IMG/VR virus record: IMGVR_UViG_3300037119_000977
Span: 1 to 27,992 of that record
Source: a virus
Strand: one strand, 5' to 3'
DNA length: 27,992 bases
Position numbers and translations under genes: made by a program
The notes under the pieces: generated by a model
Seen by the model: only the letters and a program-made list of their open reading frames with translations
The model's database searches: none
What the model was told of the DNA's origin: nothing
Shown here: one piece after another, positions 9,596-25,999 of the stretch
How positions within the stretch are numbered: the first letter of the stretch is position 1
Layout of the letters: every line of letters begins with the position of its first letter

Positions 9596-9840
9596 AGGAA
9601 CTTGTCGTACTCGTAGTTCCAAAGAGCACGATCTGCTTTGTCACGAATGTATTCACGTTCCCAGCCAACGGAATCCCACCCTTCAAAAACAAACGCTTCT
9701 TTGCCGTCGTATGGCCCACCTTGGAGCCGAACTATTTCTATCGAGCCCCAATGATCAAACTTTGGCGATGCTTGATCTGTGTAGTCAACTCGCCCATAAA
9801 GTAATGGCGAGTCAAGTGGCGGTCCGCCCCACATCATCAC
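9592..9840 (-). CDS. Small unknown neck-region protein with GGPYDG motif
   Basis: An 82-residue protein starting MMMWGGPPL and rich in Tyr, Trp and Asp. The central IVRLQGGPYDGKEAFVF resembles a small beta-rich phage protein type in which a GGPYDG turn follows a hydrophobic strand. I cannot assign a function. It overlaps the connector gene upstream (ATGA at 9837-9840) and the adaptor downstream (ATGA at 9592-9595), so it is clearly translated with neck genes. It could be a structural add-on, or an accessory gene between two conserved joint genes. Confidence 0.7.
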   Translation of the reverse strand: MMMWGGPPLDSPLLYGRVDYTDQASPKFDHWGSIEIVRLQGGPYDGKEAFVFEGWDSVGWEREYIRDKADRALWNYEYDKFL

Positions 9841-10559
9841 GCAAACCCCAGATGTAAGCGGTACGGCTCAAGCAATGCCTTTGCGCCTAGCGGAATCTCG
9901 GTCAATGGTTGCTCGACTGTGTTCTCGCGGCTTTCGTACAAGTGCCCAAGCACCAGCAGCATCGCGGCCTTGACTGAGTACGGCAATATCTCCGCCTCTG
10001 TCGGACTGTCACTCGGAAGTCCATATCCTGCGATGTACTGCACACGAACCGAACCGGCGTGGTAGCGCGCACCGCTGGGCCATGCCACGTTGTAAGGTGC
10101 CCTAAGCCGTGCCGGCTCGGTCCATGTGTCCAGTTCAAATTGAATGTTTGTCGGTGAGCCGGTGCCATCGTCCATGATGGTTTCAGTTCCGTCTTCCGCG
10201 ATGTAGCTCACCTGAATCACTCGCAAGACCGGACCCATCGGCAACGGTATGCCGTCCTGGTCGTAGCACGCCGCGGGGAATTGGTCTGTGCGGTATTCCA
10301 GCGTCTTCTGTGCGATCGACCGCCCCATGTACTGCTCGCAATACTCCCGCGCTGCGCTGATCTGCCATTCGATCAGTTCCTGATCTGGATATTCAGGAGG
10401 CGAGTCGATTGCGTCTATCCGCAGATGCAAAGCGGCTTCCGCGATGTTGATCGGCTCGACGATCTGATCCGCGTTCAGCACCTTGACGCCAGTGCGGGCG
10501 TATCGGGTTGAACTCCATGCGTAGTACCAGCTAGGCGGCGAGTAGTAGATAAGGCTCAT
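9837..10559 (-). CDS. Head-tail connector protein (gp6 / phiE125 gp8-like)
   Basis: A 240-residue protein of the gp6-like connector group. Signatures include EPINIAEAALHLRID, ELIEWQISAAREYCEQYMGRS and the central strand KTLEYRTDQFP, and the C-terminal helix YSVKAAMLLVLGHLYESREN is nearly diagnostic. It stacks under the portal as the first connector ring. Most relatives follow portal and capsid genes closely. Here it is separated from the portal by about 11 kb of fibre-like and glycan genes. The start overlaps an unknown small gene by ATGA. Confidence 0.87.
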   Translation of the reverse strand: MSLIYYSPPSWYYAWSSTRYARTGVKVLNADQIVEPINIAEAALHLRIDAIDSPPEYPDQELIEWQISAAREYCEQYMGRSIAQKTLEYRTDQFPAACYDQDGIPLPMGPVLRVIQVSYIAEDGTETIMDDGTGSPTNIQFELDTWTEPARLRAPYNVAWPSGARYHAGSVRVQYIAGYGLPSDSPTEAEILPYSVKAAMLLVLGHLYESRENTVEQPLTEIPLGAKALLEPYRLHLGFA

Positions 10560-10807
10560 CCGTCCGAACCTTGAGTTATTGGGAGAAAAGATCCATCGCT
10601 AGTTATGCGAGCGCCAAATTTGCAGTCGCGTTGGACAGAACGAATACTGCGATAAGACTTACAAATTTGTATGTCATCAAGCTCATCGGTTCGGCCGTCA
10701 CACCTTAACCATCTACCAGCATGGCGCACTTCCAGTATCGAACCTGTTAAACGGTAAGGATTCTGACGAAGAGCACTTAGCGCTTCGTCTCTGGTTAGGT
10801 CTGTCAT
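10556..10807 (-). CDS. Small hypothetical protein at end of glycan gene block
   Basis: An 83-residue protein starting MTDLTRDEALSALR. A longer in-frame extension to 11086 exists but lies wholly within the glycosyltransferase gene in another frame. The ATG at 10807 overlaps the glycosyltransferase stop as ATGA, which decides the start. The sequence is soluble and basic, with SILEVRHAGRWLRCDGRTDELDDI in its middle. The opening helix followed by strands suggests a small alpha/beta domain. No family is recognised. It sits between the last glycan gene and the connector, and could belong to either set. Confidence 0.68.
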   Translation of the reverse strand: MTDLTRDEALSALRQNPYRLTGSILEVRHAGRWLRCDGRTDELDDIQICKSYRSIRSVQRDCKFGARITSDGSFLPITQGSDG

Positions 10808-11517
10808 GCTGCCTCTTTCGCGTGCCACCAGATGTCGTCGTGCTCGGTTTGTCTGCGTTCCGGCATATCTGGCGTTCCTAATGTGAAGTGCGCAATGATC
10901 GGTCGCTCTGGCTTCGGTTGTATTCCAACGAGCCAGTTGGCGCTTCCTGGCAATTCGCCAATCTCTGAATCCGCAAGCCATTTCAGTCCGTGCAAATCTC
11001 GACCTGGCCATTGATTCAACGTCGTAAGGTTCAGTCGTTTGTTTGCAGGGTGATCGCAATTCCACAAAATCACACTGGACCAGCACTTGCGCGCGTAGGA
11101 GGTTTGCGTTTGCCCGCGCATCTTGGTTCCGTCTGCATTGAAGTCTTCATGCTTCACGCAATGCAAGGCCTTAGTTGGATCGGCATAGACCATCAGTTCG
11201 TATGGGTCTTCAAGCATCACCGTGTCTGAGTCCGCAAACAGGCACCATCCAGAATGACAGAGAATCGGCACCGCAAAGCGTGAGATTGCAAACTCCGTCG
11301 ACATTGGCGCGTTGCTGTTCAAGTCGAACAAGCTGCCGCGGCGGTCTGTTGGACGAGTCAATATCCCTGCGTAGCGAAGCCGTTCCTCGTAAAGCGGAAT
11401 AACGTCGCAGCCCCACGCTCGGGCGGTCTTCTCTGCCACGTCGTACGCGATCTTCTCGCGCTCGTCGTATCCGATGTAGACCCGCAGGCGGTCACGTGGT
11501 TGATCCTTCCATGCCAT
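10804..11517 (-). CDS. GT-A fold glycosyltransferase (GT8-like)
   Basis: A 237-residue protein with a nucleotide-sugar transferase plan. RLRVYIGYDEREKIAYDV opens the fold (residues 10-27), STEFAISRFAVPIL (73-86) precedes the metal-binding site, and FADSDTVML (94-102) is a DxD motif (Asp96, Asp98). The C-terminal IIAHFTLGTPDMP supplies a His as in GT8-like enzymes. It is shorter than host LPS GT8 enzymes (about 300-340). Sugar and acceptor cannot be read. It is the last enzyme of the nine-gene glycan block and overlaps the next small gene by ATGA. It is cytoplasmic, with no signal or membrane segment. Confidence 0.78.
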   Translation of the reverse strand: MAWKDQPRDRLRVYIGYDEREKIAYDVAEKTARAWGCDVIPLYEERLRYAGILTRPTDRRGSLFDLNSNAPMSTEFAISRFAVPILCHSGWCLFADSDTVMLEDPYELMVYADPTKALHCVKHEDFNADGTKMRGQTQTSYARKCWSSVILWNCDHPANKRLNLTTLNQWPGRDLHGLKWLADSEIGELPGSANWLVGIQPKPERPIIAHFTLGTPDMPERRQTEHDDIWWHAKEAA

Positions 11518-11520
11518 GCT

Positions 11521-12162
11521 TCAATCCCAACTTAGGAAGAAATCACCAGACATCGTGAGCCGTAGCTTTGCCCCTAAGTCCTGCAAGTAGTTGACTGCAC
11601 CGATTTCTTTCAATCCGAACTGCTGCGCCTTGCCTGGTTTCTGTTCCACACACACGACCGGCTTCCAGCGCTTCAATGTTTCCTCACCACCGCGCAAGGC
11701 ATAGAGCTCGTAGCCTTCGCAGTCCAGCTTGATGAAGTCGACGTCCTGCAAGTTGAAATCATCGAGCCGGCGCATCTCAATCGATCCCTCGCCCTTGACG
11801 TATGAATCGCCGCTGCTAGTGGGCGCCGAGTACATGCCAACAGTCCCGAACTTCTCGCCTAGTGCAATCGGGTGCAGGTGAACGTTTGGCATATCCACAT
11901 TCCGCGCGAAGCATTCGCGATGGGCACTGATGGGCTCAAAGGCATGCACCACGCCGAAGCGTCGAGCGAGGTTGTAACTCCATAGTCCGACATGGCCGCC
12001 CACGTCCACAGCAGTTCTAAACGACTTGCATAGATGTAGAGCGGCCACCTGCTTCTTGCCCTGGTAGCTATTTCGTCCATTCAGCATGACTCCGTTCTTC
12101 TGAATCCATTCCGGCAGGTGCTTCTCGCCGTCTGGGAACCACCATCCTTCAGCTAAGAACAT
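11521..12162 (-). CDS. FkbM-family SAM methyltransferase
   Basis: A 213-residue methyltransferase of the FkbM type. The SAM-binding motif I is TAVDVGGHVGLWS (50-62), motif II is HAFEP (73-77), and the family's C-terminal DFIKLDCEGYELYAL (142-156) is clear. FkbM enzymes usually O-methylate sugars or polyketide-like hydroxyls and are common in LPS, flagellar and phage glycan clusters. It overlaps the GT9 gene by 14 bases and ends three bases before the GT-A glycosyltransferase start. Together these suggest methylated sugar building or capping. Confidence 0.87.
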   Translation of the reverse strand: MFLAEGWWFPDGEKHLPEWIQKNGVMLNGRNSYQGKKQVAALHLCKSFRTAVDVGGHVGLWSYNLARRFGVVHAFEPISAHRECFARNVDMPNVHLHPIALGEKFGTVGMYSAPTSSGDSYVKGEGSIEMRRLDDFNLQDVDFIKLDCEGYELYALRGGEETLKRWKPVVCVEQKPGKAQQFGLKEIGAVNYLQDLGAKLRLTMSGDFFLSWD

Positions 12163-12880
12163 CGCGCAGCGCCTCTGCTACTTCATCAACACTTATGGCT
12201 TCCATCGATTCCCTGCATTTCGGACAGTTGACGCGCATCCCACAGATGCCTTCTGCGTGCCTTATGTTTTTTTGCGTCTGATAGCCAGTAATCGACGGAT
12301 CGATGAAATGACTCCAGAGCACCACTGCCGGAACTTCAAGAGCAGCTGCTGCATGGTGTAACCCTCCCTCAGGTCCGACGTAAGCCTTGCAAACGCTCAG
12401 CACTGCGCAGGCATGGCGGAAGGTCGGCGTGTTGACCATCGTCACGCCATTGAGCCACGGTCCCTTATCCGAGCACTGAACCATCGGCGCAATGCTTACC
12501 AACTGCTGCCATCGCTCCCAGAGCCATTGTTTGTTCGTGTGTCCGTTTGCCTTGCTGTTCGGTTCGATCATTACCAAGCCGCGATACGGCTCTGCGAACG
12601 CCTTTTCCTCAACGGTGAAATACAACTCGCCCGGTATCGGCTTGTATGGCTTCCATGACCAGCGCTGGTTATTCTTCCCTGCTATGTAAGGCCGATTACC
12701 GCCTGCATTCAGCAGCTTCACATGGTTGCTGCGATGCATGCGGGTGATCTTTGGATTCCCGTCAAACACTGGATGCCACATGAGCCGTCCGACGTGGTTC
12801 ACCACCATCACCACCTGACCACGATGCGCGTACAAGTCCTTGACTTGGCCGGTACACATCAGCCAGTCCCCGGCGCCCAT
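12149..12880 (-). CDS. GT9-like (heptosyltransferase-related) protein
   Basis: A 243-residue protein of the ADP-heptose:LPS heptosyltransferase superfamily (GT9). The start MGAGDWLM corresponds to the GxGDxL loop of GT9, which normally follows a first beta strand. Here an in-frame TGA lies three codons before ATG, so the N-terminal strand is truly absent. The C-terminal donor site YVGPEGGLHHAAAALEVP (167-184) carries the GGLHHAAA block where GT9 enzymes have SGxxHlAAAlg. A late Cys pair (CGMRVNCPKC) resembles the C-terminal cysteine motif of some phage and host GT9 proteins. Length is about 100 residues below heptosyltransferases. Activity is plausible but not certain. Confidence 0.78.
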   Translation of the reverse strand: MGAGDWLMCTGQVKDLYAHRGQVVMVVNHVGRLMWHPVFDGNPKITRMHRSNHVKLLNAGGNRPYIAGKNNQRWSWKPYKPIPGELYFTVEEKAFAEPYRGLVMIEPNSKANGHTNKQWLWERWQQLVSIAPMVQCSDKGPWLNGVTMVNTPTFRHACAVLSVCKAYVGPEGGLHHAAAALEVPAVVLWSHFIDPSITGYQTQKNIRHAEGICGMRVNCPKCRESMEAISVDEVAEALRDVLS

Positions 12881-13500
12881 TACCTCGTTTCAAACGAAAA
12901 CATGGCAGCCCTGCGCCCGTAGATGATCGCGTGCGAGACGCGACTCGAATCGACAATCCACAGATCACCGGGATCGAATGACACCCTCTGCACCGGCCCC
13001 TCGTTGATGCGAGCCCTATAGCCCGGATCGTAGGTACCGCTGTCTTTGCTTACTGCGGTTGTACCTATGTCCCAAACCCGCGGCTCAGTGTCTAGGTTCA
13101 CGAAGAACCGAACCACCGGAGAAACAACCCGCTCCGCATAAACATCGAAGTGAAGCGGCTCATCCTTCGTGATCGTGTAGCGCCAGGAGTGCATCTCCGG
13201 CCCGTACTTTTTCTTCGGGAACCATCGGCGCATCAAGCCCCTAGCTTCATCCTCCGTCTTTTTCAACATTGCCTGAATCTCTTTCGCGCGCCCCGCATCC
13301 GTAGTCCACACGCGAAGAGGATGCTTACCATCGAAAGGCAATAGAGCGTTCTTGGACTTCATCTTCTTCCAGAGCGCAACGTCGTGGATCGGCAGTTCTG
13401 ACAGCGCCTTGAAGTTGGACAGACGAATCGACTTGAAAACAATCAACTCACAGGCATCGAACAGTCTTGCGACCTCTGCGTCTGGCGGATCGAATATCAC
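12880..13500 (-). CDS. 2-oxoglutarate/Fe(II) dioxygenase-like protein resembling Kdo 3-hydroxylase (KdoO)
   Basis: A 206-residue protein. The facial-triad motif is HFD (His117, Asp119) in PLHFDVYAE. The distal His is His190 in DSSRVSHAII, with Arg196/Arg197 as candidates for 2-oxoglutarate binding. The spacing and phrasing (SWRYT..DEPLHFD, then FFVNLDTEPRVWDIG, then VSHA) recall the Kdo_hydroxy family. In Burkholderia and related bacteria that family converts Kdo to Ko in lipid A-inner core. This resemblance is from memory, not a search. The protein is shorter than host KdoO (about 280-300). Placement among glycosyl- and methyltransferases supports a sugar substrate, either host LPS Kdo or a virion glycan. 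Confidence 0.72.
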   Translation of the reverse strand: MIFDPPDAEVARLFDACELIVFKSIRLSNFKALSELPIHDVALWKKMKSKNALLPFDGKHPLRVWTTDAGRAKEIQAMLKKTEDEARGLMRRWFPKKKYGPEMHSWRYTITKDEPLHFDVYAERVVSPVVRFFVNLDTEPRVWDIGTTAVSKDSGTYDPGYRARINEGPVQRVSFDPGDLWIVDSSRVSHAIIYGRRAAMFSFETR

Positions 13501-14000
13501 CTTGTTTCAACAATCGCATAAGGCTTGCCACGCGACCACTTCACGAACTTCGCTTCCCATCTCCAGAACGGCCAAAGCGTGACGTGCATATTCAAACCGT
13601 CTTTGAATCGCTTCTTCGCTGGTCGACAACAGATCGAGGCCCACACGAATTTGTCCGCGTAGTCGAAAAGCCGCATCACGAAAGCTGGCACTTCATCTTC
13701 AGGGATGTGCTCGATCACGTCGCTGCACAAGACCGCATCGAACCTGCCTTCGGGCAATGTCGAGTGCGTCTCGAAAGCTGGGTCGTACAGGGTTGGTCTT
13801 TCAATCCCCCATAGTTCATGCAATGCGTATTCAGGCCCGTATTGCTCACCCCTGCCGCATCCGTAATCCAGAACCGTCTTCGCTTCAAACTTATCCAGCA
13901 ACTTCTTAATCTGCCCGGCGTGCTCCATGATGCTGAGGCCGGGGAAGTGAGTCGTGTTCTCGGCCAACGCCCGATAGCGGGCCAACATCTCCTCAGACAC
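13497..14000 (-). CDS. Class I SAM-dependent methyltransferase (second of pair)
   Basis: A 167-residue methyltransferase. Motif I is KTVLDYGCGRGEQYG (41-55), and the post-motif CSDVIEHIPEDEV (92-104) has the Asp-Val-x-Glu-His signature of small-molecule class I enzymes. The C-terminus is short and basic (KRFKDGLNMHVTLWPFW). It overlaps the previous methyltransferase by 8 bases and the dioxygenase gene by ATGA. The substrate is unknown. The context suggests sugar O- or N-methylation or a step in making a modified sugar. It is not closely similar to the upstream methyltransferase beyond the common fold. Confidence 0.83.
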   Translation of the reverse strand: MSEEMLARYRALAENTTHFPGLSIMEHAGQIKKLLDKFEAKTVLDYGCGRGEQYGPEYALHELWGIERPTLYDPAFETHSTLPEGRFDAVLCSDVIEHIPEDEVPAFVMRLFDYADKFVWASICCRPAKKRFKDGLNMHVTLWPFWRWEAKFVKWSRGKPYAIVETR

Positions 14001-14580
14001 GGCGCCGCCTAAACCATCCTGTCCACTCTGAAAACGATCCGCGCGTCACCCGCTCGAGCTCGAACCCGTACCACGTCATAACGGCTTGCATGTCGTGCTT
14101 CACGAAACCGGATCGCTGTGCAACTACGGCCGGCGCATGTTGTGGCGGGAGTCTCATCACAACTAGGCTCTTCGCTGCCGCCGCGAACCTTGCGCATGCC
14201 TGACTCGGCAACTTCAGCTTGTTCAGGATGCCGAGCAATAGCACGATGTGGTATTCCCCATCGGGCTGATAGGTGTTCGCATCCCCTACCTCAAAGCGGC
14301 ATGAGTAATGCGCCCGTAGTCTTCTGGCTTCTTCGACGTGTCTCTCGATCTTTTCTATGCCGTGAACGTCGGCCCCACGTTTAGCAAGTTCGATCGAGAT
14401 CAGCCCTTCAGCACAACCAACGTCGAGAATCGTTGATCCTTTCGCCTCATCGAACAGTGGATCAAGTCCGAGTAACTGTTGCTCGAGCGTGCGGTCGCCG
14501 GGACGATTTTCACCCTTGAACCATCCCTTCAGTTCAGCATCCGCCACGCTGTTCCATCTTTCATTTCTGAAACGTTCCAT
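13993..14580 (-). CDS. Class I SAM-dependent methyltransferase (first of pair)
   Basis: A 195-residue methyltransferase. Motif I is STILDVGCAEGLISIELA (49-66), with acidic Glu76 at the end of strand 2 (VHGIEKI). The N-terminal helix ADAELKGWFKGENRPGDRTLE and the central LLLGILNKL fit small class I enzymes. The frame from ATG 14580 overlaps the upstream gene by 52 bases. A GTG eleven codons in (before ADAELKGW) is an alternative start. The substrate cannot be read. The tight overlaps with both neighbours place it inside the glycan block. Confidence 0.82.
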   Translation of the reverse strand: MERFRNERWNSVADAELKGWFKGENRPGDRTLEQQLLGLDPLFDEAKGSTILDVGCAEGLISIELAKRGADVHGIEKIERHVEEARRLRAHYSCRFEVGDANTYQPDGEYHIVLLLGILNKLKLPSQACARFAAAAKSLVVMRLPPQHAPAVVAQRSGFVKHDMQAVMTWYGFELERVTRGSFSEWTGWFRRRRV

Positions 14581-15254
14581 TGGTTGTCGGCCAGCACTCC
14601 GAAGAACCGCTCGCGATCCTTTGGATATATCGGCTGCTCTATATCAATTACCCTGACTCCCATCCCGTAACACGCGCCGGCACAGCAAGCGACCGGAATA
14701 CCCTCCAGTAATGCAGTCACGCTTGCAGCGGATGAGTACGTCGCAAGAATCCATGCGTCCCGCAGATCGTCCGGCAAGGTCTTCGATGCCTTTGCTTTGT
14801 CCCTGTCCCAGTTGCGAATCTTGAAGCGCCTGTTGGATGCCAGCGCCATCGATCGCACTGCTTCCGAGAGCCAGTTGTTCTTCCATCCGGCTATGTCGCG
14901 CATGAACGAATCGGACTGCGGACATACAACGATGTGACTACCCGTCTTGCGCCACGGCTTTATTTCGAGCGCGAGCGCTTTGAACCTTTGGCCGTCGCTT
15001 TGACCTTCCCCAGAATGCTGGACTGCGTTCCTGGCGATGCGGAAATGAGTGCCCCGCGTTTTGTCGAAGAACGAGTTGTCGATGTAGTACCACGGCTCGG
15101 AACCAGTGCAGACCCGCTGCCAGTGGTGGATATTGGTTTGATCGACGCCATAGAAAACCTCTCCTTGTGCTTCGGTTGGTGCCCCTTGTATGAATGCCGC
15201 GCATAGGTCGCGGCTTTTTGCCTTGCCTAGTACCGGCCTTGCAATCAACATCAA
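14529..15254 (-). CDS. Capsule-type glycosyltransferase-like protein, paralog 2
   Basis: A 241-residue protein paralogous to the next gene upstream. Both share PWRxxGxxxxVCxQ (here residues 100-113) and the block ATYSSAASVTALLEGIPV (171-188), which is the type seen in KpsC/KpsS-like capsule transferases (T-SS--gieALl-GiPV). They also share a closing segment of a Trp, an acidic residue, Met or Glu and Leu (NVSEMKDGTAWRML). YYIDNSFFDKTRG (57-69) corresponds to a beta-strand and loop near the start. The RPHPG motif of its sister is absent. No signal or membrane segment is seen. Function as a sugar transferase is inferred from family resemblance and context. Confidence 0.68.
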   Translation of the reverse strand: MMLIARPVLGKAKSRDLCAAFIQGAPTEAQGEVFYGVDQTNIHHWQRVCTGSEPWYYIDNSFFDKTRGTHFRIARNAVQHSGEGQSDGQRFKALALEIKPWRKTGSHIVVCPQSDSFMRDIAGWKNNWLSEAVRSMALASNRRFKIRNWDRDKAKASKTLPDDLRDAWILATYSSAASVTALLEGIPVACCAGACYGMGVRVIDIEQPIYPKDRERFFGVLADNQWNVSEMKDGTAWRMLN

Positions 15255-16027
15255 TTCAACCGCTCGCGGAACAACGCGAAAGGAAGCCCCGCTTCAATCT
15301 CCGCAATCGACCACTGCGCGCTCGCGACCTTTTCCATCGCTAGCAGCCTCTTGCCGTCGTCGACTATCGGATGCGCGATGCCGTCAATCTTTACAGCACA
15401 GTCTTCAGCTATCCAAAAGGGCGCATCGAATGCGACCGGGATGCCGTTTACTAACGCCTTGATGCCGGAGGAACTAGACCAGATCGCGCACGCCCATGCG
15501 CCCTGCAAATCATCTTCAACCGGCGTCTTCGGTGGATCCTTGCCGGGGTGAGGCCTTATCCGTACCTGCTTTTCGCAAAGCTGCTGTATGCGTTTCGCCG
15601 CTTTGTCATGCCATCCTGCAGGCGACGCCATCGTCTTGCTTCCAATACCGCGCTGACCGCAAACAAGCACAAAATCGCCAGCAGTACGCCACGGCTGGAG
15701 TTCGATACCCAGCTTCGCGAAGCGGCCAGAGCACGGCGGGAACCACCCAGAGCCGTTGTGACCATGCGCGGAGATCGCGTAATACTGCTGCCCGTTCTTG
15801 TCCTTTCCGATGTATCCGTTTTCGCAGACGAGGACCGTTCCGCCTCTCCTCTCCCACGCGGCGGCCATCGATTCATAACCGCCGTACAGATTCCATGTGA
15901 TCAGCAAGTCCCTGCTGCTTTCCGGCTGCCCACTCTGCACCAGTTTGTAGCCGTTCTTCGCCAATCCGGCGAGGAATGCATCTCTTCGGTAGTGTGGTTG
16001 CGATCGGATACTGCATAGGGCGATCAT
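15251..16027 (-). CDS. Capsule-type glycosyltransferase-like protein, paralog 1
   Basis: A 258-residue protein with a GT-B-like C-terminal half. RIRPHPGKDPP (156-166) and AIWSSSSGIKALVNGIPV (181-198) match the RPHP and SSxxGxxAllxGiPV pattern of capsule-polysaccharide (KpsC/KpsS, Kdo-transferase-like) proteins and polysaccharide pyruvyl-transferase-like folds. The protein is about half the length of KpsC, so only one catalytic module is present. Arg156/His160 and Ser184-Ser187 would be functional residues in relatives. It overlaps the DUF115-like gene upstream (ATGA) and its paralog downstream (ATGA). Kdo transfer is an attractive but unproven idea, given the Kdo-hydroxylase-like neighbour. 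Confidence 0.7.
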   Translation of the reverse strand: MIALCSIRSQPHYRRDAFLAGLAKNGYKLVQSGQPESSRDLLITWNLYGGYESMAAAWERRGGTVLVCENGYIGKDKNGQQYYAISAHGHNGSGWFPPCSGRFAKLGIELQPWRTAGDFVLVCGQRGIGSKTMASPAGWHDKAAKRIQQLCEKQVRIRPHPGKDPPKTPVEDDLQGAWACAIWSSSSGIKALVNGIPVAFDAPFWIAEDCAVKIDGIAHPIVDDGKRLLAMEKVASAQWSIAEIEAGLPFALFRERLN

Positions 16028-16647
16028 GCGGCCATCTGTAACGGCTCAGACGGAAAGCATTTAATCGCGCTGCCTGGTGTTCGATTGATCACTTCAACAT
16101 CCTTCGGCAACAGCTTTGCCAGTTCGTTGAAGCGATCCACCCAGCTGCTGTAAATCGTCTCGCCGTGATTCCTCAGTGGTGAAGGATGCTCGCCATGCCA
16201 GTGCTGCTCGTAGCGGCCGGTCCTCTTGTCTTTCGCGCCGTGACAGTCAAAGCCGTACAGCAATATCCGCTTCGCGCCTGCGTGAACGGCAATGCATATA
16301 GCCTGGTATCCGCTGTTCTTGCCGCTCCTAAGTTTCGCGGGATCGGGATCGAACCCGTTAACTCCACTCCTGAATAGCGTCAGGACTTCTGGCGGTGGGT
16401 CAAAGTCTGCCGTGCCTACCTTTAATCCCTGAAAACTCTTTACCTCTTTCCAATGCCGATTCCACCACGCCGCATCTGCTGCGTAGAGCATGTCTGCCCA
16501 CGGCGCGAGCCTGATCGTCGTATTGATAGCGATCGTCCTGTGGGCGGCCCTTGCTACCTGATCCGCTACTTCCTGCGACATCGAAGGCCCGCTTGCAAGG
16601 ATGGCGACGGTTTCGCCTTCCCACATTTTCGGAACAGACCACTTCAT
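16024..16647 (-). CDS. DUF115-like Rossmann protein
   Basis: A 207-residue protein. The N-terminal ETVAILASGPSMSQE (12-26) is a glycine/serine loop typical of DUF115/Maf-2 and related proteins of sugar or motility-glycan clusters. SGYQAICIAVHAGAKRILLYG (112-132), with FDCHG next, is the family's second motif (many aligned Gly, Asp, His). DUF115 proteins include 6-hydroxymethylpterin pyrophosphokinase-like folds and motility-accessory (pseudaminic acid-transferring) proteins. Here the short form is common in phages next to glycosyltransferases. It is a soluble protein. Its exact reaction is unknown. It opens the glycan enzyme run, overlapping the upstream gene by ATGA. Confidence 0.72.
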   Translation of the reverse strand: MKWSVPKMWEGETVAILASGPSMSQEVADQVARAAHRTIAINTTIRLAPWADMLYAADAAWWNRHWKEVKSFQGLKVGTADFDPPPEVLTLFRSGVNGFDPDPAKLRSGKNSGYQAICIAVHAGAKRILLYGFDCHGAKDKRTGRYEQHWHGEHPSPLRNHGETIYSSWVDRFNELAKLLPKDVEVINRTPGSAIKCFPSEPLQMAA

Positions 16648-17093: not shown

Positions 17094-18464
17094 TTACACC
17101 GCGCGCCACTCGTCGACTCCGACGTCGCCCGTTCCTTGTAGCTCCGTGTCATTAACGTACTGAATGTTTGCGTCAATTTGGTTGGCAACCGTGAACGTTA
17201 ACTTGTCGGTTTGCACCTTCACCGCATCGACTACGGTTTTGATTGCAGCGACTTCAGTATCGAGTAAGTCATCGACGGTGTTAAGAGCTGTTGCCGTCGC
17301 CAGTCCGCTTTGAATCTCCGTCACGGCATCGGCGGCCAGTGCCGAAGCGGTGACGCTATTGGCCGCGAGCCCGTTCACAAGTGTCACTGCGGCCATGGTG
17401 CGCGTTTCGACCTCGTCGGCAATAGCTGAGGCCGTCGGCGCGCTCCCGCCCGTTGGTGCCTGCTCGAGCGCATTGGTCGTGAAGCGGAATGTGCCGGCGT
17501 CATCCTCAAGCGTGTCGTCGAGCTTGTCTGTAACAGCCTTCACGAGCGCTACCTGTGCGAGCACGGCATCGTCGGCGGTCCCGAGAGCCGTCGCTAGTTC
17601 AGAATTTGTCGGCAAATCGTCGACGCTCGTTTGGAGGGCAGACACAGCGGAAGCTGTCGCTAGACCAGACTGTAGCTCGGTCGTTACGTCTGAATGAATC
17701 TTTGCCGCCGTTATTGCATCCGCCGCAAATGATGCCGCTGTAATTCCGCCCGTTGCAACGCTTCCTACGCTTCCTGTGACGTTGCCGCCGACGTTACCTG
17801 TCACGCTACCCACCGCACCGGTGACACTGCCTACGGCCCCTGTGACGCTTGCAATGGTCACGTCTGAGGCAACCTTGGCATCGGTGATTGCATCGCTGGC
17901 AATCTTCGCCGCCGTGATCGCGCCGTCCTTGATGTTCTCAACAGCGATGGCATCGTCAGCAATCTTCGCGTTAGTAATGGCATCGGCGTTGATGGCTGTC
18001 GCGGTGATCGCATTGGCCGCGATGCTCGCCACTTTGACTTCCTGAATCCCTGATGCTGCTGTGATAGCGGTTCCAGCGTTGCTGACCACGTTGGCATTGA
18101 TGCCAGCTGCAGGTTCAATCCTGAACGTTGCAGCGATAAAACTGACTGTCTGGCTGTCAGCAGTGATCGTGCTGACCACTACCCAATACTGAGCTCCAGC
18201 AGAGAAGAAGCCGCTGTCGGTGTTGTCTCCGGTATCAACGCTGAATCCGTGAATACCTGTGATGCCGTCAAAGTCGATGCCGTCCGTGTCCAGCAAGGTG
18301 TAACCGTTGTCGCTGGAACGCTGCGTGGTTGATCCATTTTTGTAAATCTCAATATCCGTGGCTGCCAGTCCGGTGATCGTCACGCTCGCGCCGGCCGCGT
18401 TGAACGTGTGGAACGGTATGTAAAGAACCGTTCCTGCCGGCACGTTTCCGTAACTGATCGTCAT
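17094..18464 (-). CDS. Repeat-rich fibre-like structural protein
   Basis: A 456-residue protein. The N-terminal ~120 residues form a beta-sandwich-like domain (TVLYIPFHTFNAAGASVTITG; GFFSAGAQYWVVVST) of the phage base/BppU-like or attachment-domain kind. Residues about 150-205 hold repeats of AIT-x-AKIA-x-D, then 204-236 is a run of GSVTG/GNV repeats. After that come alternating DAITxAKI and QSGLATA segments, and finally a short C-terminal helix (NDTELQGTG). The pattern is common to phage fibre/appendage proteins. The low-complexity center would give an extended rod. It overlaps the glycine/serine-rich putative beta-helix gene (ATGA at 18461-18464), which suggests one appendage made of both products. 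Confidence 0.78.
   Translation of the reverse strand: MTISYGNVPAGTVLYIPFHTFNAAGASVTITGLAATDIEIYKNGSTTQRSSDNGYTLLDTDGIDFDGITGIHGFSVDTGDNTDSGFFSAGAQYWVVVSTITADSQTVSFIAATFRIEPAAGINANVVSNAGTAITAASGIQEVKVASIAANAITATAINADAITNAKIADDAIAVENIKDGAITAAKIASDAITDAKVASDVTIASVTGAVGSVTGAVGSVTGNVGGNVTGSVGSVATGGITAASFAADAITAAKIHSDVTTELQSGLATASAVSALQTSVDDLPTNSELATALGTADDAVLAQVALVKAVTDKLDDTLEDDAGTFRFTTNALEQAPTGGSAPTASAIADEVETRTMAAVTLVNGLAANSVTASALAADAVTEIQSGLATATALNTVDDLLDTEVAAIKTVVDAVKVQTDKLTFTVANQIDANIQYVNDTELQGTGDVGVDEWRAV
17757..18011. repeat. In-frame tandem repeats in fibre gene
   Basis: This DNA encodes residues about 152-236 of the fibre-like protein. It contains about five AIT-x-AKIA-x-D units and about six GSVTG-type units. 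Near-identical 12-18 base blocks make it prone to slippage and recombination, so its length may vary among relatives. Confidence 0.75.
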
Positions 18465-19456: not shown

Positions 19457-19879
19457 TTACTTTTTGCCTTTGGATGCGGCCTTGACGATCACGTCAACCG
19501 GCGCAATGACGTCCAGCCGCGGCAATGGCTCGCGGACTGTCTTGCTTGCCTCCAAAGCGAGTTTCGGAACTTCCACAACAGCCTCGACTCGTTTGTCATC
19601 CGACAGCTTCAGTGCATCAGCCGGTAATGCGGCGGGGTCGATCTTGAACGCGCGCCTGCGAGGAATGTATTTGCTTGCGTCCACAGGCTCAGGAGCCAAG
19701 AAAACTGAGCCCTCATCGACCGTCATTCCAGGCACTTTCAGGATTCGCCAATCGGGATTCTTCTGTTCAATCTGCGACCACTTCCAGCCATCTGGGCAGA
19801 CGCAAACCACTTCGCGCTCGCCTAACAGCATCGGGTTGTGATCAACCTTGTCGCGGATTCTTACTAGGAATTCCGCCAT
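19457..19879 (-). CDS. Hypothetical phage protein in head-appendage block
   Basis: A 140-residue protein, MAEFLVRIRDKV at the start. WSQIEQKNPDWRILKVPGM (34-52) and FLAPEPVDASKYIPRRRAF (60-78) look like a small phage structural or accessory fold. No family is recognised with confidence. Its start overlaps the cupin stop (TGATG). It precedes the putative beta-helix gene without a gap, so it may be a joining or stabilising part of the same appendage. Confidence 0.72.
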   Translation of the reverse strand: MAEFLVRIRDKVDHNPMLLGEREVVCVCPDGWKWSQIEQKNPDWRILKVPGMTVDEGSVFLAPEPVDASKYIPRRRAFKIDPAALPADALKLSDDKRVEAVVEVPKLALEASKTVREPLPRLDVIAPVDVIVKAASKGKK

Positions 19880-20205
19880 CAGGTGTAAGCCTTATCCCAG
19901 CCGGTGTATTCCTGCACGATGTCGCCCTGCGGGGTCCGGTGGGAGTACACGCACCAAAACACTGAGTTATCTTCAAGGAACTCGATGTCGTGCTCGACTC
20001 CGGCCTTGATCAGTACGTGCGCCTGACTGATTGCCACATCACCGGACGCGGCCCTTAACTCGCGCTTAACATCGCCCGCCTTGATGCGGACCGCCCCGCG
20101 CAGGCATATGGTTGTGTGGTCGAAGTTGTGTGCGTGGCCCTTTATCTTGTCGCCCTTGTTTCCCTGGTTGGGCCGGATATAGACGTTGCCGCAGGCCCAT
20201 TCCAT
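19879..20205 (-). CDS. Cupin-domain protein
   Basis: A 108-residue cupin with a single small beta-barrel. The first cupin motif is KGHAHNFDHTTICLRG. Its metal-type ligands are His24, His26 and His30 (His at the usual Glu position) with Gly37 after six residues. The second motif places His72 in AGVEHDIEFL. This supports metal binding. Substrate and reaction are unknown: sugar isomerase/epimerase, dioxygenase or a plain structural barrel are open. It overlaps both neighbours (TGATG), between two uncharacterised virion-type proteins. Confidence 0.78.
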   Translation of the reverse strand: MEWACGNVYIRPNQGNKGDKIKGHAHNFDHTTICLRGAVRIKAGDVKRELRAASGDVAISQAHVLIKAGVEHDIEFLEDNSVFWCVYSHRTPQGDIVQEYTGWDKAYT

Positions 20206-20549
20206 CAGTCGTCCTTCACGACTCGATGCACGTACTCCGGCATGCGAACCAATGTCCCCTTCACAACCATATCGACTTGCAGGTTCATGGCTTCGCGCCC
20301 GCCCTCAATCACCACGGCACCTTCTTTCGTGCAGATACGAAATCCCGTCGGCTCGCCGGTCGCAACGGCCACAGACGGCGCGATCGCGTTGGCCTTGATG
20401 ATTCCCTCTTGCGGAGATCCAAACGGCACAGCGGCCAGATTTGACCGCGCCAGACGGTCTTCACCCGCCACTAGGTCGATGTAACCACCGACCAGCAGAT
20501 CAGCAAGCGCCTTGGCTTGCGCATTGGCTGCCAGATTGCTCAGCTTCAT
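20205..20549 (-). CDS. Hypothetical virion-associated protein
   Basis: A 114-residue protein with an N-terminal helix (KLSNLAANAQAKALADLL) and beta-rich rest (EPTGFRICTKEGAVVI, LQVDMVVKGTLVRMPEYV). No family is recognised. It overlaps the collagen-like gene (ATGA at 20546-20549) and the cupin gene. The helical front plus short beta-barrel-like tail would suit a small structural or decoration protein, but this is inference only. Confidence 0.7.
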   Translation of the reverse strand: MKLSNLAANAQAKALADLLVGGYIDLVAGEDRLARSNLAAVPFGSPQEGIIKANAIAPSVAVATGEPTGFRICTKEGAVVIEGGREAMNLQVDMVVKGTLVRMPEYVHRVVKDD

Positions 20550-21661
20550 TGAATTGTCCCGTTAGGTTTTCTCGGCGTATCGCCCTTCTTGACCATCAAG
20601 CGCCAGGCGTCGGAGCGTCCGGGCTTGTCGCGCGTGCTTTTCTCTGCATGCCAGCTCGAGCCGTCCCAGGTCACGACGTCGCCACGGTCGTATTCCTTGC
20701 CTTCCGAGAAAGTGCCGCGCGGAATCTGTTGGTAGGTCTTGACCTCAGTCACAAGGGATTTGCCGTTCGTCATCAGGTAGGACGTCACGCGCGTCCTGCC
20801 ATCCGGCGCCATGTCTTCGGCGATCGACTGAATACCGTTCTGCGAAATTAGCCATCCAGCGGCCTCCAGATCGCCCGCTACGACGGGATCGGTTGTCCGG
20901 TAGGCAACTATGGTCCCGCCGCGGTGAATCGCGCATGAGCCCTTTGGGTAAGCCATAGACTCATCTATGCCGGGGAGCCAATCAATCTCGCTTGCATGCT
21001 TGCCATCCATGCCGCGATCGCCCTTCGGGCCAGGACGACCGGGCTCGGGTCTAGGCAACGCGTTAACCGCTTTTATGGCCTCGGCTTGAATTAATGAATG
21101 GACGGTTGCGAGATCAATGTCCTTGCCATCCTTGCCTTTCTCACCATGAATGGGCGGCGGTATTTGAGCAAGTACCTTTTCCGTGACTGACGCCGCGAGC
21201 GCTTCGGTATCAACAGCCGGCGCATCGACGCCCTTAGGTCCAGGTTCTCCGCTCTTCGGAACCGGAACCTGCGCGAGAACCGCTTTGATGACGGCTTCTG
21301 TATCGATCGGTTCGGCGTCCTTACCTCGGGCTCCAGGCGGGCCCGGATCGCCGTCTTTCGGTTTCGGTACGAGCGCCAGAACCTTTTGCGCTAAGGCTTC
21401 GACGTCGACTGGTGGCGCATCCTGTCCACGAGGGCCAGGGTCGCCTCTAATGCCGATTCCATCTTCGCCCTTGTCGCCCTTCGTTCCAGGCGGGCCAGGA
21501 GGGCCAGGGTCTCCCGGTGGGCCTTTGACTGGCCCGGGAATGGATTTGATTTCCTGCCTGATTGCATCTATTTCCCCGCGCAGAGCCGCTACAGCCGAGC
21601 CAACGTGAGTCTTGATGACATCGGCAACCGCTAAGAGAATCGGCGCATCACGCATTGGCAA
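20546..21661 (-). CDS. Interrupted collagen-like fibre protein with C-terminal carbohydrate-binding-like domain
   Basis: A 371-residue protein. A helix at residues 10-40 is followed by uninterrupted G-X-Y at about 43-80, then three copies of an ~35-residue unit: a DAPxVDxEAL helix, then VLAQVPxPK, then G-X-Y (about 81-115, 116-146, 147-180). A final collagen segment follows at about 207-221. The C-terminal ~50 residues (FSEGKEYDRGDVVTWDGSSW) resemble a CBM5/12-like carbohydrate-binding module. It overlaps the portal gene by 14 bases. Trimeric triple-helical rods with a sugar-binding tip are known on phage heads and tails. Head decoration is likely from position but unproven. Confidence 0.83.
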   Translation of the reverse strand: MPMRDAPILLAVADVIKTHVGSAVAALRGEIDAIRQEIKSIPGPVKGPPGDPGPPGPPGTKGDKGEDGIGIRGDPGPRGQDAPPVDVEALAQKVLALVPKPKDGDPGPPGARGKDAEPIDTEAVIKAVLAQVPVPKSGEPGPKGVDAPAVDTEALAASVTEKVLAQIPPPIHGEKGKDGKDIDLATVHSLIQAEAIKAVNALPRPEPGRPGPKGDRGMDGKHASEIDWLPGIDESMAYPKGSCAIHRGGTIVAYRTTDPVVAGDLEAAGWLISQNGIQSIAEDMAPDGRTRVTSYLMTNGKSLVTEVKTYQQIPRGTFSEGKEYDRGDVVTWDGSSWHAEKSTRDKPGRSDAWRLMVKKGDTPRKPNGTIQ

Positions 21662-23302: not shown

Positions 23303-25279
23303 CTACCAGTACACGTCCGTAATGACTTGGACGCCGGCATCGCGACGCCGCTTCCATGTGACAAACCGCTCGGCTTTGAGGCCGACCATGTTGTGCTGCC
23401 ACAGGGAAACAAGCTGCGCCGCGCCCGTTGCAGGCGCGCCGTCCATCTGCAGCGAGGCTTCACCGCTTGAATCAATGCGGGTCGCGCCGTCATCTGCAAG
23501 AAAGACTTCACGCTGCACGAGGAACACGATGTACGAATCCGTGCCCGTTTGCAACGGCATGTTGCCCGATACGATGACCGGGAAGCCGTAGAGGTTGCCG
23601 CCGTTCAACGCTACGCCTGGGAATGCTGGCGTGTCCTGCGCGCCGCGGAGAGTCGACAGGTAAACCGCTGTCTGTGGGCGCATGATCCACACGCCGCTCG
23701 AGATGTTTACGTTGTTGCTGGCCGCGTTGGTCAGCGCCGTGGTCAATGCTGTGGTGATCAGCGCGACCGTGGCACCCGTTGAAGCGGTAGCCGTCGCTCC
23801 GTTCGTGATCGATGCCGGAGAAGTCGTGCCGACCGCTGAGAGTGATGGATCGATAAATGACACGTCCATCTTCTGCGCGACTGCCGCAACGATTTCGTCC
23901 CGCACCAACATTTCAGCGCTCGGGCTTGAGAAGCGCATCAGTTCTTCCGTCAGCACCACGATGGTCGTGAGCTTGTTGAAGAGCAGGGTCACTGAATCGA
24001 AGTCCAAAGCACTGACTGGCTTCGCTCCGCCTTGATCAACCCACGATGCAGTTGCACCCGCCGCCAACTTCGGGAAGCGGACATTGAAAGGCACGCGACG
24101 AACCAAAGGCAGGCGTCCAAGGATGGTCTCCGGACGCAGCAATTCGATGAACTCGTTCGCCAGGTCGGTGTAATTGACCAGCGGCGCGGCCCAGTTGGAA
24201 TCCGTTGTCGTACCCGCAGCGACCGCCGCCTTGTAGACCTTGGCGCCTTGCAGCGACTTGTACGCCTGTAGGACGAGCGGCGTGTCCTTGAAGTTATCGC
24301 GGATCAACTGCTCGGTGTCCATGCGGCTGCCCTTACCGGCCATGACCGCCATTGCAAGGCGCGCGAAGTCCTGACCCACAAAGCCGTTGCGCTTTGAAAA
24401 CTGAATCGGGGAGCGGCCGGCTTCCGTGCGTTGCTGCGTTGCCGTATCCGGATCGTCAGTCACCGGCGTGGCGGTCAACATCAGCTTCTCGATGTTGCGC
24501 AGGCTCGCGACCTGCTTGTCGATAACCTGAACTTCTTTGGTGATGTCTTCACGCTGTTGCAGCAGCGTGTCATCGGCCGGGCCCTCTTCAGTCACCAGAT
24601 TCTCGATCTGGCTCATCTTGTAGGCGCGCTCGGCCTCGAAATTGCCGATCTGTTCGGCGATTGAGGTTTTCATTACTTTTCCTTTGGTGGTTGATGCCGA
24701 GACGCCGGCAGATGGAGGGGGCAAATCGATAATCACTGCGTTGTCGTACGAAAATGAGCCGGACGCGGCCCGTTGGTGTTGCTCATCGAGCGCCTTAATC
24801 GTGGCGATCGTTGCTTCAGAATTTGCGGGGATGGTGACCAGCGACAGTTCGTGCCAGTCCCATTCCTTGTATCGGACGCCGCCCGACTTCAGGCGCTCAA
24901 CGGCACCCTTGACGGCCATGAAACCGATCGAAACAGCGGTCACGAGCCCGTACTTGACTGAATGGATCGCTTCGTCGACGCGTTCCTTCAGCTTTCCGTC
25001 TTCCTTGACGTAGGGTAGAAAAGCTTCAAACGGAATGCCATTTGCGGTGGGACGTGCAAAAGTGACATAGCCAACCGGCTGGTCGTTCTTGTGCTGCCAC
25101 AGCAATGGCATCGGGGTTTTGAATCTGGCCCCCAGCGGCTCGACTACGTCTTCCACGCGATCAGGCGTGGGAGTCGACGCCATGCCCTTGATCGTCAAGC
25201 CCTTCGCTTCCGCGCGGGTCTCTTTGACTTCAAGAACGGAGTACGCCTTATTGAGCGCGGTCGTTTGGTCGTATGGCAT
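23303..25279 (-). CDS. Prohead protease-major capsid protein fusion (HK97 type)
   Basis: A 658-residue fusion. Residues 1-165 are an HK97-type (S78) prohead protease: His63 in LLWQHKNDQPVG, Ser117 in TAVSIGF, and a candidate third residue Glu144 in WHELSLV. Residues about 205-270 form a coiled-coil scaffold (delta) domain (SIAEQIGNFEAERAYKM). From about 290 to the end is the HK97-fold capsid (LLRPETILGRLPLVRRVPF, then FFNKLTTIVVLTEELM-like text and the C-terminal NMVGLKAERFVTWKRRRDAGVQV). A strong internal start for the capsid part alone lies at 24673 (456 residues). GGAG stands five bases upstream of the main ATG. Confidence 0.9.
   Translation of the reverse strand: MPYDQTTALNKAYSVLEVKETRAEAKGLTIKGMASTPTPDRVEDVVEPLGARFKTPMPLLWQHKNDQPVGYVTFARPTANGIPFEAFLPYVKEDGKLKERVDEAIHSVKYGLVTAVSIGFMAVKGAVERLKSGGVRYKEWDWHELSLVTIPANSEATIATIKALDEQHQRAASGSFSYDNAVIIDLPPPSAGVSASTTKGKVMKTSIAEQIGNFEAERAYKMSQIENLVTEEGPADDTLLQQREDITKEVQVIDKQVASLRNIEKLMLTATPVTDDPDTATQQRTEAGRSPIQFSKRNGFVGQDFARLAMAVMAGKGSRMDTEQLIRDNFKDTPLVLQAYKSLQGAKVYKAAVAAGTTTDSNWAAPLVNYTDLANEFIELLRPETILGRLPLVRRVPFNVRFPKLAAGATASWVDQGGAKPVSALDFDSVTLLFNKLTTIVVLTEELMRFSSPSAEMLVRDEIVAAVAQKMDVSFIDPSLSAVGTTSPASITNGATATASTGATVALITTALTTALTNAASNNVNISSGVWIMRPQTAVYLSTLRGAQDTPAFPGVALNGGNLYGFPVIVSGNMPLQTGTDSYIVFLVQREVFLADDGATRIDSSGEASLQMDGAPATGAAQLVSLWQHNMVGLKAERFVTWKRRRDAGVQVITDVYW
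24671..24685 (-). promoter_or_regulatory. Internal Shine-Dalgarno and ATG for capsid-only product
   Basis: Within the fusion gene, the minus strand reads AAAGGAAAAGTAATG, an excellent ribosome binding site (AAGGA six bases before ATG). It lies precisely at the junction of protease and scaffold-capsid (residue 203, MKTSIAEQ). It is better than the site at the gene's own start, and would yield a 456-residue scaffold-capsid protein in excess over the fusion. Confidence 0.75.
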
Positions 25280-25427: not shown

Positions 25428-25871
25428 TTACGTGCCTAGACCCACGTTGTTACGCGTGCATGTCGCAGCAGGCGCGCGGGTGAAGGTCCAGTTGATCACC
25501 GCGGTTGCCGCCGATGGCGTCATCGTGACCGTGCAACCGGCCAGCTGATTGGTTCCGGTCATCACGATTGCCGCGGTCACCGCCGTCAAAGTGACGGTTG
25601 CGTTGTTCGGTGTCGGTAGCGCAACTGTCTGCAAGAAGCCGCCGTTGACCAGTTCGGCCATCGTGTCGCAGTTGATAAGGCTGCTGTTGTTGTTCTGCAT
25701 GCATTCCGCGATTGCCTGCTTCATCTGCTGGATCGAACTAAGCGGTTCTTTCCAGCGCGTGCGCGTGATGTAGTCCTGGTACTGAGGAATCGCGATTGCA
25801 GCGAGGATCCCGATGATTGCTACAACGATCATCAACTCGATGAGCGTGAAGCCCTTTGATGCTCTTTTCAT
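25428..25871 (-). CDS. Type IVa major pilin-like protein
   Basis: A 147-residue prepilin. The leader is MKRASKG, followed by Phe at mature position 1 and Glu at +5 ([18 protein letters not shown]), the canonical class III signal for PilD cleavage and methylation. The hydrophobic N-terminal helix continues ([16 protein letters not shown]). Four cysteines lie at 57, 68, 113 and 138. The last two can form the C-terminal D-loop disulfide. The globular part is small, as in Proteobacterial PilA. The start is the ATG at 25871 with GGAG seven bases upstream. A longer frame to 25982 is not used, because it would precede the leader. No other pilus gene is nearby. It is a cargo gene between terL and capsid. 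Confidence 0.87.
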
Positions 25872-25891
25872 TTGAAACTCCGATAGATGGT

Positions 25892-25907
25892 GCGGCTCCG
25901 GTTCCGC
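25892..25907. promoter_or_regulatory. 16-bp imperfect palindrome in pilin leader
   Basis: GCGGAACCGGAGCCGC on the minus strand is palindromic except at two 2-base positions. It lies 20 bases before the pilin ATG, downstream of the terL terminator. It could be an operator or a small hairpin in the mRNA leader. Nothing else supports a specific regulator, and such GC palindromes also occur by chance. Confidence 0.3.
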
Positions 25908-25946
25908 TGGTTGGGTCTGTCTAGTTATCCGCACATCCGCAAGGCG

Positions 25947-25974
25947 AAAAAAAAGGGCCACCGAAGTGACCCTT
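25947..25974 (-). terminator. Rho-independent terminator after terL
   Basis: The minus strand reads AAGGGTCAC-TTCG-GTGGCCCTT followed by more T. This is a 9-bp stem with one G-T wobble and the very stable cTTCGg tetraloop. An eight-T run overlaps the stem end. It begins 25 bases downstream of the terL stop and separates packaging genes from the pilin-capsid genes. Confidence 0.9.
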
Positions 25975-25999
25975 AAATCCATCTAGCGGGGAATACTCG

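Follow-up and report, generated by a model that had tools for sequence, protein, structure and literature searches.

A collinear phage gene cassette with a Maf-like glycosyltransferase core, a candidate system for O-glycosylation of virion proteins

We analysed the 27,992-base virus record IMGVR_UViG_3300037119_000977, hereafter called the window, whose coordinates are used throughout. This DNA carries nine intact open reading frames (ORFs), designated A to I, all on the minus strand at positions 10804-16647, with fibre-like genes on one side and the head-tail adaptor gene on the other. An earlier inspection of the letters without database searches (the sequence-only reading) had delimited a co-directional nine-gene glycan block between fibre-like genes and the head-tail connector, and all nine ORFs were recovered with these limits. 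It had also described the genes as contiguous and overlapping. Overlaps of 1-52 bases were indeed found throughout, with the sole exception of the H/I junction, where a gap of 3 bases separates the genes; A to I therefore appear translationally coupled. No minus-strand terminator was detected within the block, and promoter matches there occurred at chance level only.

The GC content of the block (0.54-0.58) is that of its flanks and of the rest of the window, and recent acquisition of the cassette was rejected on this ground. No nucleotide-level match of the window to phages was obtained. At the protein level, the module products are 63-84% identical to those of the relative L003. The ratio of nonsynonymous to synonymous substitution (dN/dS) calculated against L003 lies in the range 0.065-0.18 in B, C, D, E, H and I (synonymous sites of G are saturated and A is truncated at the contig end), values as low as those of structural genes. 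The reading frames are intact and under constraint.

The first gene, A (16024-16647), encodes a 207-residue protein that matches phrog_4603, annotated "alpha-2,3-sialyltransferase", with 142.7 bits. Its score against Pfam PF01973 (MptE-like/DUF115) is 22.0 bits, under the gathering cut-off of 34.6, and the closest tested homolog reaches 34.0. The AlphaFold2 (AF2) model of A has a predicted local distance difference test score (pLDDT) of 89.4. When it was compared to the PDB with Foldseek, the one significant match (E <= 0.001) was 5MU5, the Magnetospirillum Maf protein (E 9e-6, probability 1.00). By VIA, the model superposes on Maf with Z 16.1 and a root-mean-square deviation (rmsd) of 3.6 A over 189 residues, followed by MptE (Z 11.7) and CstII (Z 11.2); other Rossmann folds were found at Z below 5 only. 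A aligns to residues 261-510 of the 632-residue Maf and lacks the N- and C-terminal flanking domains of the three-domain Maf architecture. Going by its predicted fold, A is a core-only relative, not a full Maf, and a putative initiating protein O-glycosyltransferase.

B (15251-16027, 258 residues) and C (14529-15254, 241 residues, TTG start) gave no significant Pfam, PHROG or NCBIfam family match. They are paralogs (28% identity, E 1e-18). The AF2 model of B (pLDDT 95.2) indicates a GT-B fold glycosyltransferase, since the 28 best Foldseek matches in the PDB are all retaining 3-deoxy-D-manno-oct-2-ulosonic acid (Kdo) transferases of the KpsC/WbbB/KrkA type. VIA gave Z 12.5 and an rmsd of 4.2 over 223 residues, the next GT-B structure reaching only Z 8.2. 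The "capsule-type" label that the sequence-only reading had given to both proteins is therefore borne out by the predicted fold for B, and would extend to C as a paralog. B also shares with these enzymes the S...AL..G.PV nucleotide-binding stretch, but differs from them at the active site: the catalytic Asp nucleophile of KpsC (D160; WbbB D232) aligns with Gly129 of B. Among 35 family rows, this column holds Gly in 18 and Asp in a single one (alignment E 0.005); in many of the C-type rows, an Asp stands two columns before it. Because of this replacement, B is not to be called a Kdo transferase.

The remaining six genes encode further enzymes expected to build or modify glycans. D (13993-14580, 195 residues) and E (13497-14000, 167 residues, GTG start) are class I S-adenosylmethionine (SAM) methyltransferases, D matching PF13847 (39.6 bits, cut-off 27) and PF13649 (40.3 bits), and E matching PF13489 (34.8 bits, cut-off 27) and phrog_24759 (E 2e-16). 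G (12149-12880, 243 residues) belongs to the GT9 or heptosyltransferase family (PF01075, 25.7 bits vs 22), and H (11521-12162, 213 residues) is an FkbM-family methyltransferase (PF05050, 57.9 bits vs 22.7; TIGR01444, 81 vs 37.7). I (10804-11517, 237 residues) matches phrog_28018, a family without an assigned function (149.8 bits, E 2e-43), and carries a DxD motif (D96/D98) whose two Asp residues are invariant in the alignment of relatives; it is probably of GT-A fold. F (12880-13500, 206 residues) has the HxD iron-binding motif of 2-oxoglutarate (2OG)-Fe(II) enzymes (PLHFD), which is kept in most homologs (L029, L035, L038, L114). Its match to the Kdo hydroxylase family PF11004 is short and local (28.2 bits vs a cut-off of 25), and its score against the NCBIfam KdoO equivalog (31 bits) is far under the cut-off of 300. 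Sequence searches of the PDB with I and with F returned nothing useful. In two other contigs, an I-type glycosyltransferase is fused to a B/C-type domain in proteins of 572 residues (L006:4669-6387 and L005:8820-10538); the L006 fusion is a sign of joint working.

No membrane-spanning hydrophobic segment was found in A to I: the highest Kyte-Doolittle mean over 19 residues is 1.56, compared to 2.97 for a pilin control. Judged from their primary structures, all nine proteins look soluble, as expected of a soluble pathway acting on cytoplasmic proteins. Among the ORFs scanned, no nucleotide-sugar synthesis gene was recognised. The donors must therefore come from the host, and the block does not form the self-contained pathway that had been suggested.

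The minus-strand gene order around the block is that of a siphovirus-type late operon, which runs from a small terminase-like ORF through the large terminase, a pilin-like gene, a fused protease-capsid gene, the portal, a collagen-like gene, small genes and fibre-like genes to A-I and the head-tail adaptor, then continues with head closure, neck, tail terminator, tail tube, chaperone, tape measure and tail-tip genes. Together, the family matches and these flanking virion genes support the view of a glycan-building and -modifying set inside a virion operon. The adaptor (9837-10559, minus strand) was identified by phrog_442 (E 1e-20). On the other flank, a fibre-like protein of 456 residues (17094-18464, minus strand; phrog_892 tail fiber, E 5e-7; phrog_13518, E 1e-9) is a candidate acceptor. 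The collagen-like gene beside the portal (20546-21661, minus strand) was recognised by its Gly-X-Y runs and by weak matches to PF01391 and PF02839; its CBM5/12-like domain is C-terminal, and it adjoins the cassette in most siphovirus-type relatives. The prohead protease and the capsid protein form a single fused ORF of 658 residues (23303-25279, minus strand). A small protein (19879-20205, minus strand), with a below-cut-off match to the FdtA/WxcM C-terminal (cupin) domain, is also present in the cassette-less relative L187. A type IV pilin-like gene (25428-25982, minus strand; PF07963, 38.1 bits; PF00114, 23.7 vs 22) separates the large terminase gene from that of the capsid, and a homolog occupies the equivalent place in the relative L151 (2052-2660). 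It is odd to find a pilin among the virion genes of a phage.

When I and B were used as seeds, about 140 viral loci were retrieved. After removal of near-copies, 34 contigs carried at least five module genes in a recognisable context. Nineteen of these were siphovirus-type, with capsid, portal or adaptor neighbours, and 15 were podovirus-type, with genes for DNA polymerase, helicase or an ejection protein nearby; none combined the two contexts. The order A-B-C-D-E-G-H-I was held by the genes present in 32 of the 34 contigs, and homologs of every one of the nine genes were found elsewhere, mostly collinear. The synteny search proposed with the sequence-only reading thus recovered the set, mostly without F, in other phages. 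The composition, of which that reading knew no described example, is not unique: both phage groups have it in collinear form, and CcrColossus has part of it. Nearly every contig has A, B and C (C in 33/34), and D and E are variable. F is an optional component: it was detected in none of the 19 siphovirus-type and in 3 of the 15 podovirus-type contigs, and the near relatives L003, L012 and L090 are without it. In the three podovirus-type contigs it lies between G and H, and in the window between E and G. An unrelated 2OG-Fe(II) oxygenase is encoded within the block of the siphovirus-type contig L019; a dioxygenase therefore recurs via different gene families. Two further insertions were observed between H and I: a gene for a 152-residue protein with a structural-protein look and no Pfam or PHROG match (L003:4540-4998), and a radical SAM protein gene in a podovirus-type cassette (L103:13961-14893).

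Partial sets extend to model phages. In CcrColossus and related Caulobacter jumbo phages, gp126-gp131 form an A-B-C-I-E-G run directly after a tail protein of 1665 residues. Besides CcrColossus, A homologs are present in D3, P1 and P7. In D3 and Tetraselmis virus S20, the A homolog comes directly after the capsid gene; in Psp6 it lies a short way downstream of that gene, and in CcrColossus it follows the tail protein. In P1 (AF234172.1, 79592-80778; L233), PmgO and PmgP are both A homologs, arranged as tandem paralogs in a region annotated "putative morphogenetic function"; likewise, HdmB and HdmC of P7 are both A homologs in a "head morphogenesis" run. Of the portal-anchored relatives, 29 have 8 kb or more of downstream sequence; A was found in 16 of these, and A with two or more further module genes in seven, making A the commonest module gene beside head genes.

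One relative, L187, shows the site without the cassette: there, the adaptor comes immediately after the capsid, portal, collagen-like, g108-, g140- and g331-like genes. In the midpoint-rooted tree of B, all podovirus-type rows form one clade (100/99) nested among siphovirus-type rows, and the window groups with the podovirus-type rows in a set of 31 rows (96/91). Taken with the cassette-less site, this nesting of the podovirus-type copies suggests transfer of the cassette from one phage type to another.

The reading that we favour, with modest confidence, sees the block as a mobile cassette, borne by phages, for the cytoplasmic O-glycosylation of a virion protein, using donors of the host, followed by methylation of the glycan. 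The first step would fall to A: as a Maf-type catalytic core on its own, it would move a sugar from a CMP (cytidine monophosphate)-activated host donor, nonulosonate- or Kdo-like, to Ser/Thr of a protein on the virion surface. The glycan would be extended by B and C (KpsC-type GT-B), by G (GT9) and by the DxD glycosyltransferase I. O-methylation would be carried out by D, E and H, and hydroxylation, in the phages that have it, by F. The decorated protein would then be built into the particle, where the benefit may be altered adsorption or particle shielding. This reading is preferred because the pathway looks soluble, donor-synthesis genes were not recognised, the neighbours are virion genes and A has the fold of a protein glycosyltransferase. 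Maf enzymes glycosylate Ser/Thr of flagellin in the cytoplasm, ahead of export (PMC4065374, PMC11339370). Those of Clostridium and Geobacillus also take CMP-Kdo, and co-expression of the Clostridium Maf in E. coli placed Kdo on flagellin (PMC11339370).

Several observations weigh against this proposal. MptE and CstII share the fold of A, so that a Maf-like fold is no proof of the same acceptor class. The placement of a glycosyltransferase set among virion genes holds for the siphovirus-type, D3-like and CcrColossus contexts but not for the podovirus-type group, in which the cassette comes after the genes for DNA polymerase and helicase and runs convergently towards those for lysis and ejection. 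The earlier argument that genes of the late operon would act at assembly therefore does not apply to that group. No protein was singled out as the acceptor. The collagen-like gene is present in 29/29 of the portal-anchored relatives, including all 13 without module genes, and a PF01391 (collagen) match was found in none of 16 podovirus-type records; the collagen-like/CBM (carbohydrate-binding module) protein was accordingly rejected as a universal acceptor. Its Gly-X-Y count showed a trend only (35 vs 8, p 0.057). More generally, capsid and collagen-gene features did not differ significantly between relatives with and without A (all p > 0.05), and capsid length or Ser/Thr content was rejected as a mark of A-bearing phages. 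Finally, pmgO and pmgP of P1 are dispensable for laboratory plaquing (PMC10695390), so that the effect would be conditional or minor and the benefit would not be assembly as such.

The sequence-only reading had left open whether a virion component is decorated or the lipopolysaccharide (LPS) of the host is remodelled late in infection. According to the latter explanation, the glycosyltransferases and methyltransferases would act at the inner membrane on lipid-linked or LPS-core acceptors, or on another surface polysaccharide, and the changed cell surface might, for example, stop superinfection or the loss of progeny on debris. G (GT9), B (Kdo-transferase fold) and F (weak Kdo hydroxylase) all resemble LPS-core enzymes, and temperate phages do carry LPS-modifying enzymes (PMC5537653). 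Neither a flippase, a polymerase nor any other membrane protein is encoded by A to I, and the membrane-embedded flippase or glycosyltransferase of Gtr-type O-antigen/LPS serotype conversion is absent from the set; yet LPS-core glycosyltransferases are often soluble or peripheral, so the missing membrane segments are no exclusion. The fold of A is that of a protein glycosyltransferase, however, and the cassette lies among head genes or near replication genes, places unlike those expected of lysogenic conversion genes. Moreover, matches to the B patterns were confined to two genome contigs, each of which carries phage virion genes, and of 68 genomes of one phylum a single one had B, located on one of these phage contigs. 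We consider LPS remodelling unlikely. The Maf fold of A, the placement in virion-gene regions of several phage types and the lack of a predicted membrane protein tip the balance towards decoration of a virion protein.

A narrower version of virion decoration would have the particle wear a mimic of the host inner core, that is, a methylated LPS-core-like Kdo/heptose glycan made on a virion protein from host CMP-Kdo and ADP (adenosine diphosphate)-heptose. A would seed Kdo on Ser/Thr, B/C and G would add Kdo-like and heptose units, F would make D-glycero-D-talo-oct-2-ulosonic acid (Ko) in some phages, and D/E/H would methylate the product. This is plausible because Clostridium and Geobacillus Maf accept CMP-Kdo, B has a Kdo-transferase fold, G is a GT9 protein and no donor-synthesis genes were recognised. 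On the other hand, B has lost the catalytic Asp, F is optional, and donor specificity is not readable from a fold, which makes such a mimic quite improbable. The Ko-like sugar suggested earlier is possible at most, given the weak, partial match of F, its absence from the three near relatives and the lack of conservation of the KpsC Asp in B.

The acceptor could also be an appendage protein, either host flagellin or a type IV pilin, possibly the pilin of the operon itself, whose glycosylation would alter receptor use or superinfection. Flagellin is the natural substrate of Maf (PMC4065374, PMC11339370), and the pilin gene belongs to the same operon as the cassette. A profile search for pilin homologs in many cassette-bearing relatives found none, however, and L151 has a pilin, yet no module gene in its 5.9 kb downstream of the portal. 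This renders an appendage acceptor very doubtful.

Phages with glycosylated hydroxymethyl-cytosine are the model for DNA hypermodification, in which the glycosyltransferases would attach sugars to a modified base in the DNA of the phage. Although phage glycosyltransferases are often DNA-modifying (work cited in PMC12619734), the podovirus-type cassette follows DNA polymerase and helicase, and the set includes a 2OG dioxygenase and methyltransferases, this explanation is highly improbable, as D, E and H fall outside DNA-methyltransferase families, the fold of A is of the Maf/sialyltransferase type, and no Tet_JBP domain was detected in 16 cassette-bearing records, a result to be read with the absence of matches in the controls as well.

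O-glycosylation of a virion protein, as favoured here, has relatives among known systems. Like Maf flagellin glycosylation (Aeromonas Maf1, Magnetospirillum 5MU5, Clostridium), the cassette has the Maf catalytic fold, in A, and would work in soluble form in the cytoplasm; a CMP-activated donor is predicted for A from its family. The cassette differs in that A is a core of about 200 residues without the flanking Maf domains, lies among phage virion genes, and has neither a flagellin partner nor accompanying nonulosonate synthesis genes. In mycobacteriophages, subunits of the capsid and of the tail tube are glycosylated (Freeman 2023, cited in PMC12619734). There, as proposed here, phage glycosyltransferases decorate virion proteins in the host cytoplasm; the glycan and acceptor were shown in that case, whereas the present set is longer, methyltransferase-rich and, on the favoured reading, Maf-initiated. 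Chloroviruses and mimivirus encode glycosyltransferases for their virion proteins and partly use host sugar nucleotides, and in mimivirus a dioxygenase and a glycosyltransferase modify a viral collagen-like protein (PMC9614988). The likeness lies in the virus-encoded glycosyltransferases for virion proteins, but these are eukaryotic giant viruses and the glycans of chloroviruses are N-linked.

Closer to the window, P1 PmgO/PmgP, P7 HdmB/HdmC and D3 orf7 are A homologs in regions annotated for virion morphogenesis, but B, C and I are absent there, and the nearby methyltransferase or glycosyltransferase genes of D3, Psp6 and Klebsiella phage Eowyn are different or only marginally similar. CcrColossus and its relatives share A, B, C, I, E and G, with I, E and G in a different order; the profiles picked up no homolog of D, F or H there. 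In the open-access literature we found no description of the cassette or of a Maf-type initiator in phage particles, subscription papers being mostly outside this search. Since glycosylation of phage virions is already known in mycobacteriophages and virus-encoded glycosylation in giant viruses, the cassette would represent a variant, with a putative function deduced from its genes.

Virion glycosylation has so far been demonstrated in few phage systems. The recurrence of a Maf-seeded cassette of eight to nine genes, collinear across unrelated tailed phages, suggests that glycosylation of particle proteins is a portable phage trait. It also offers a testable function for hitherto unexplained A homologs in model phages, such as PmgO/PmgP of P1 and orf7 of D3, and could bear on adsorption, on shielding from antibodies or host factors, and on glycoengineering.

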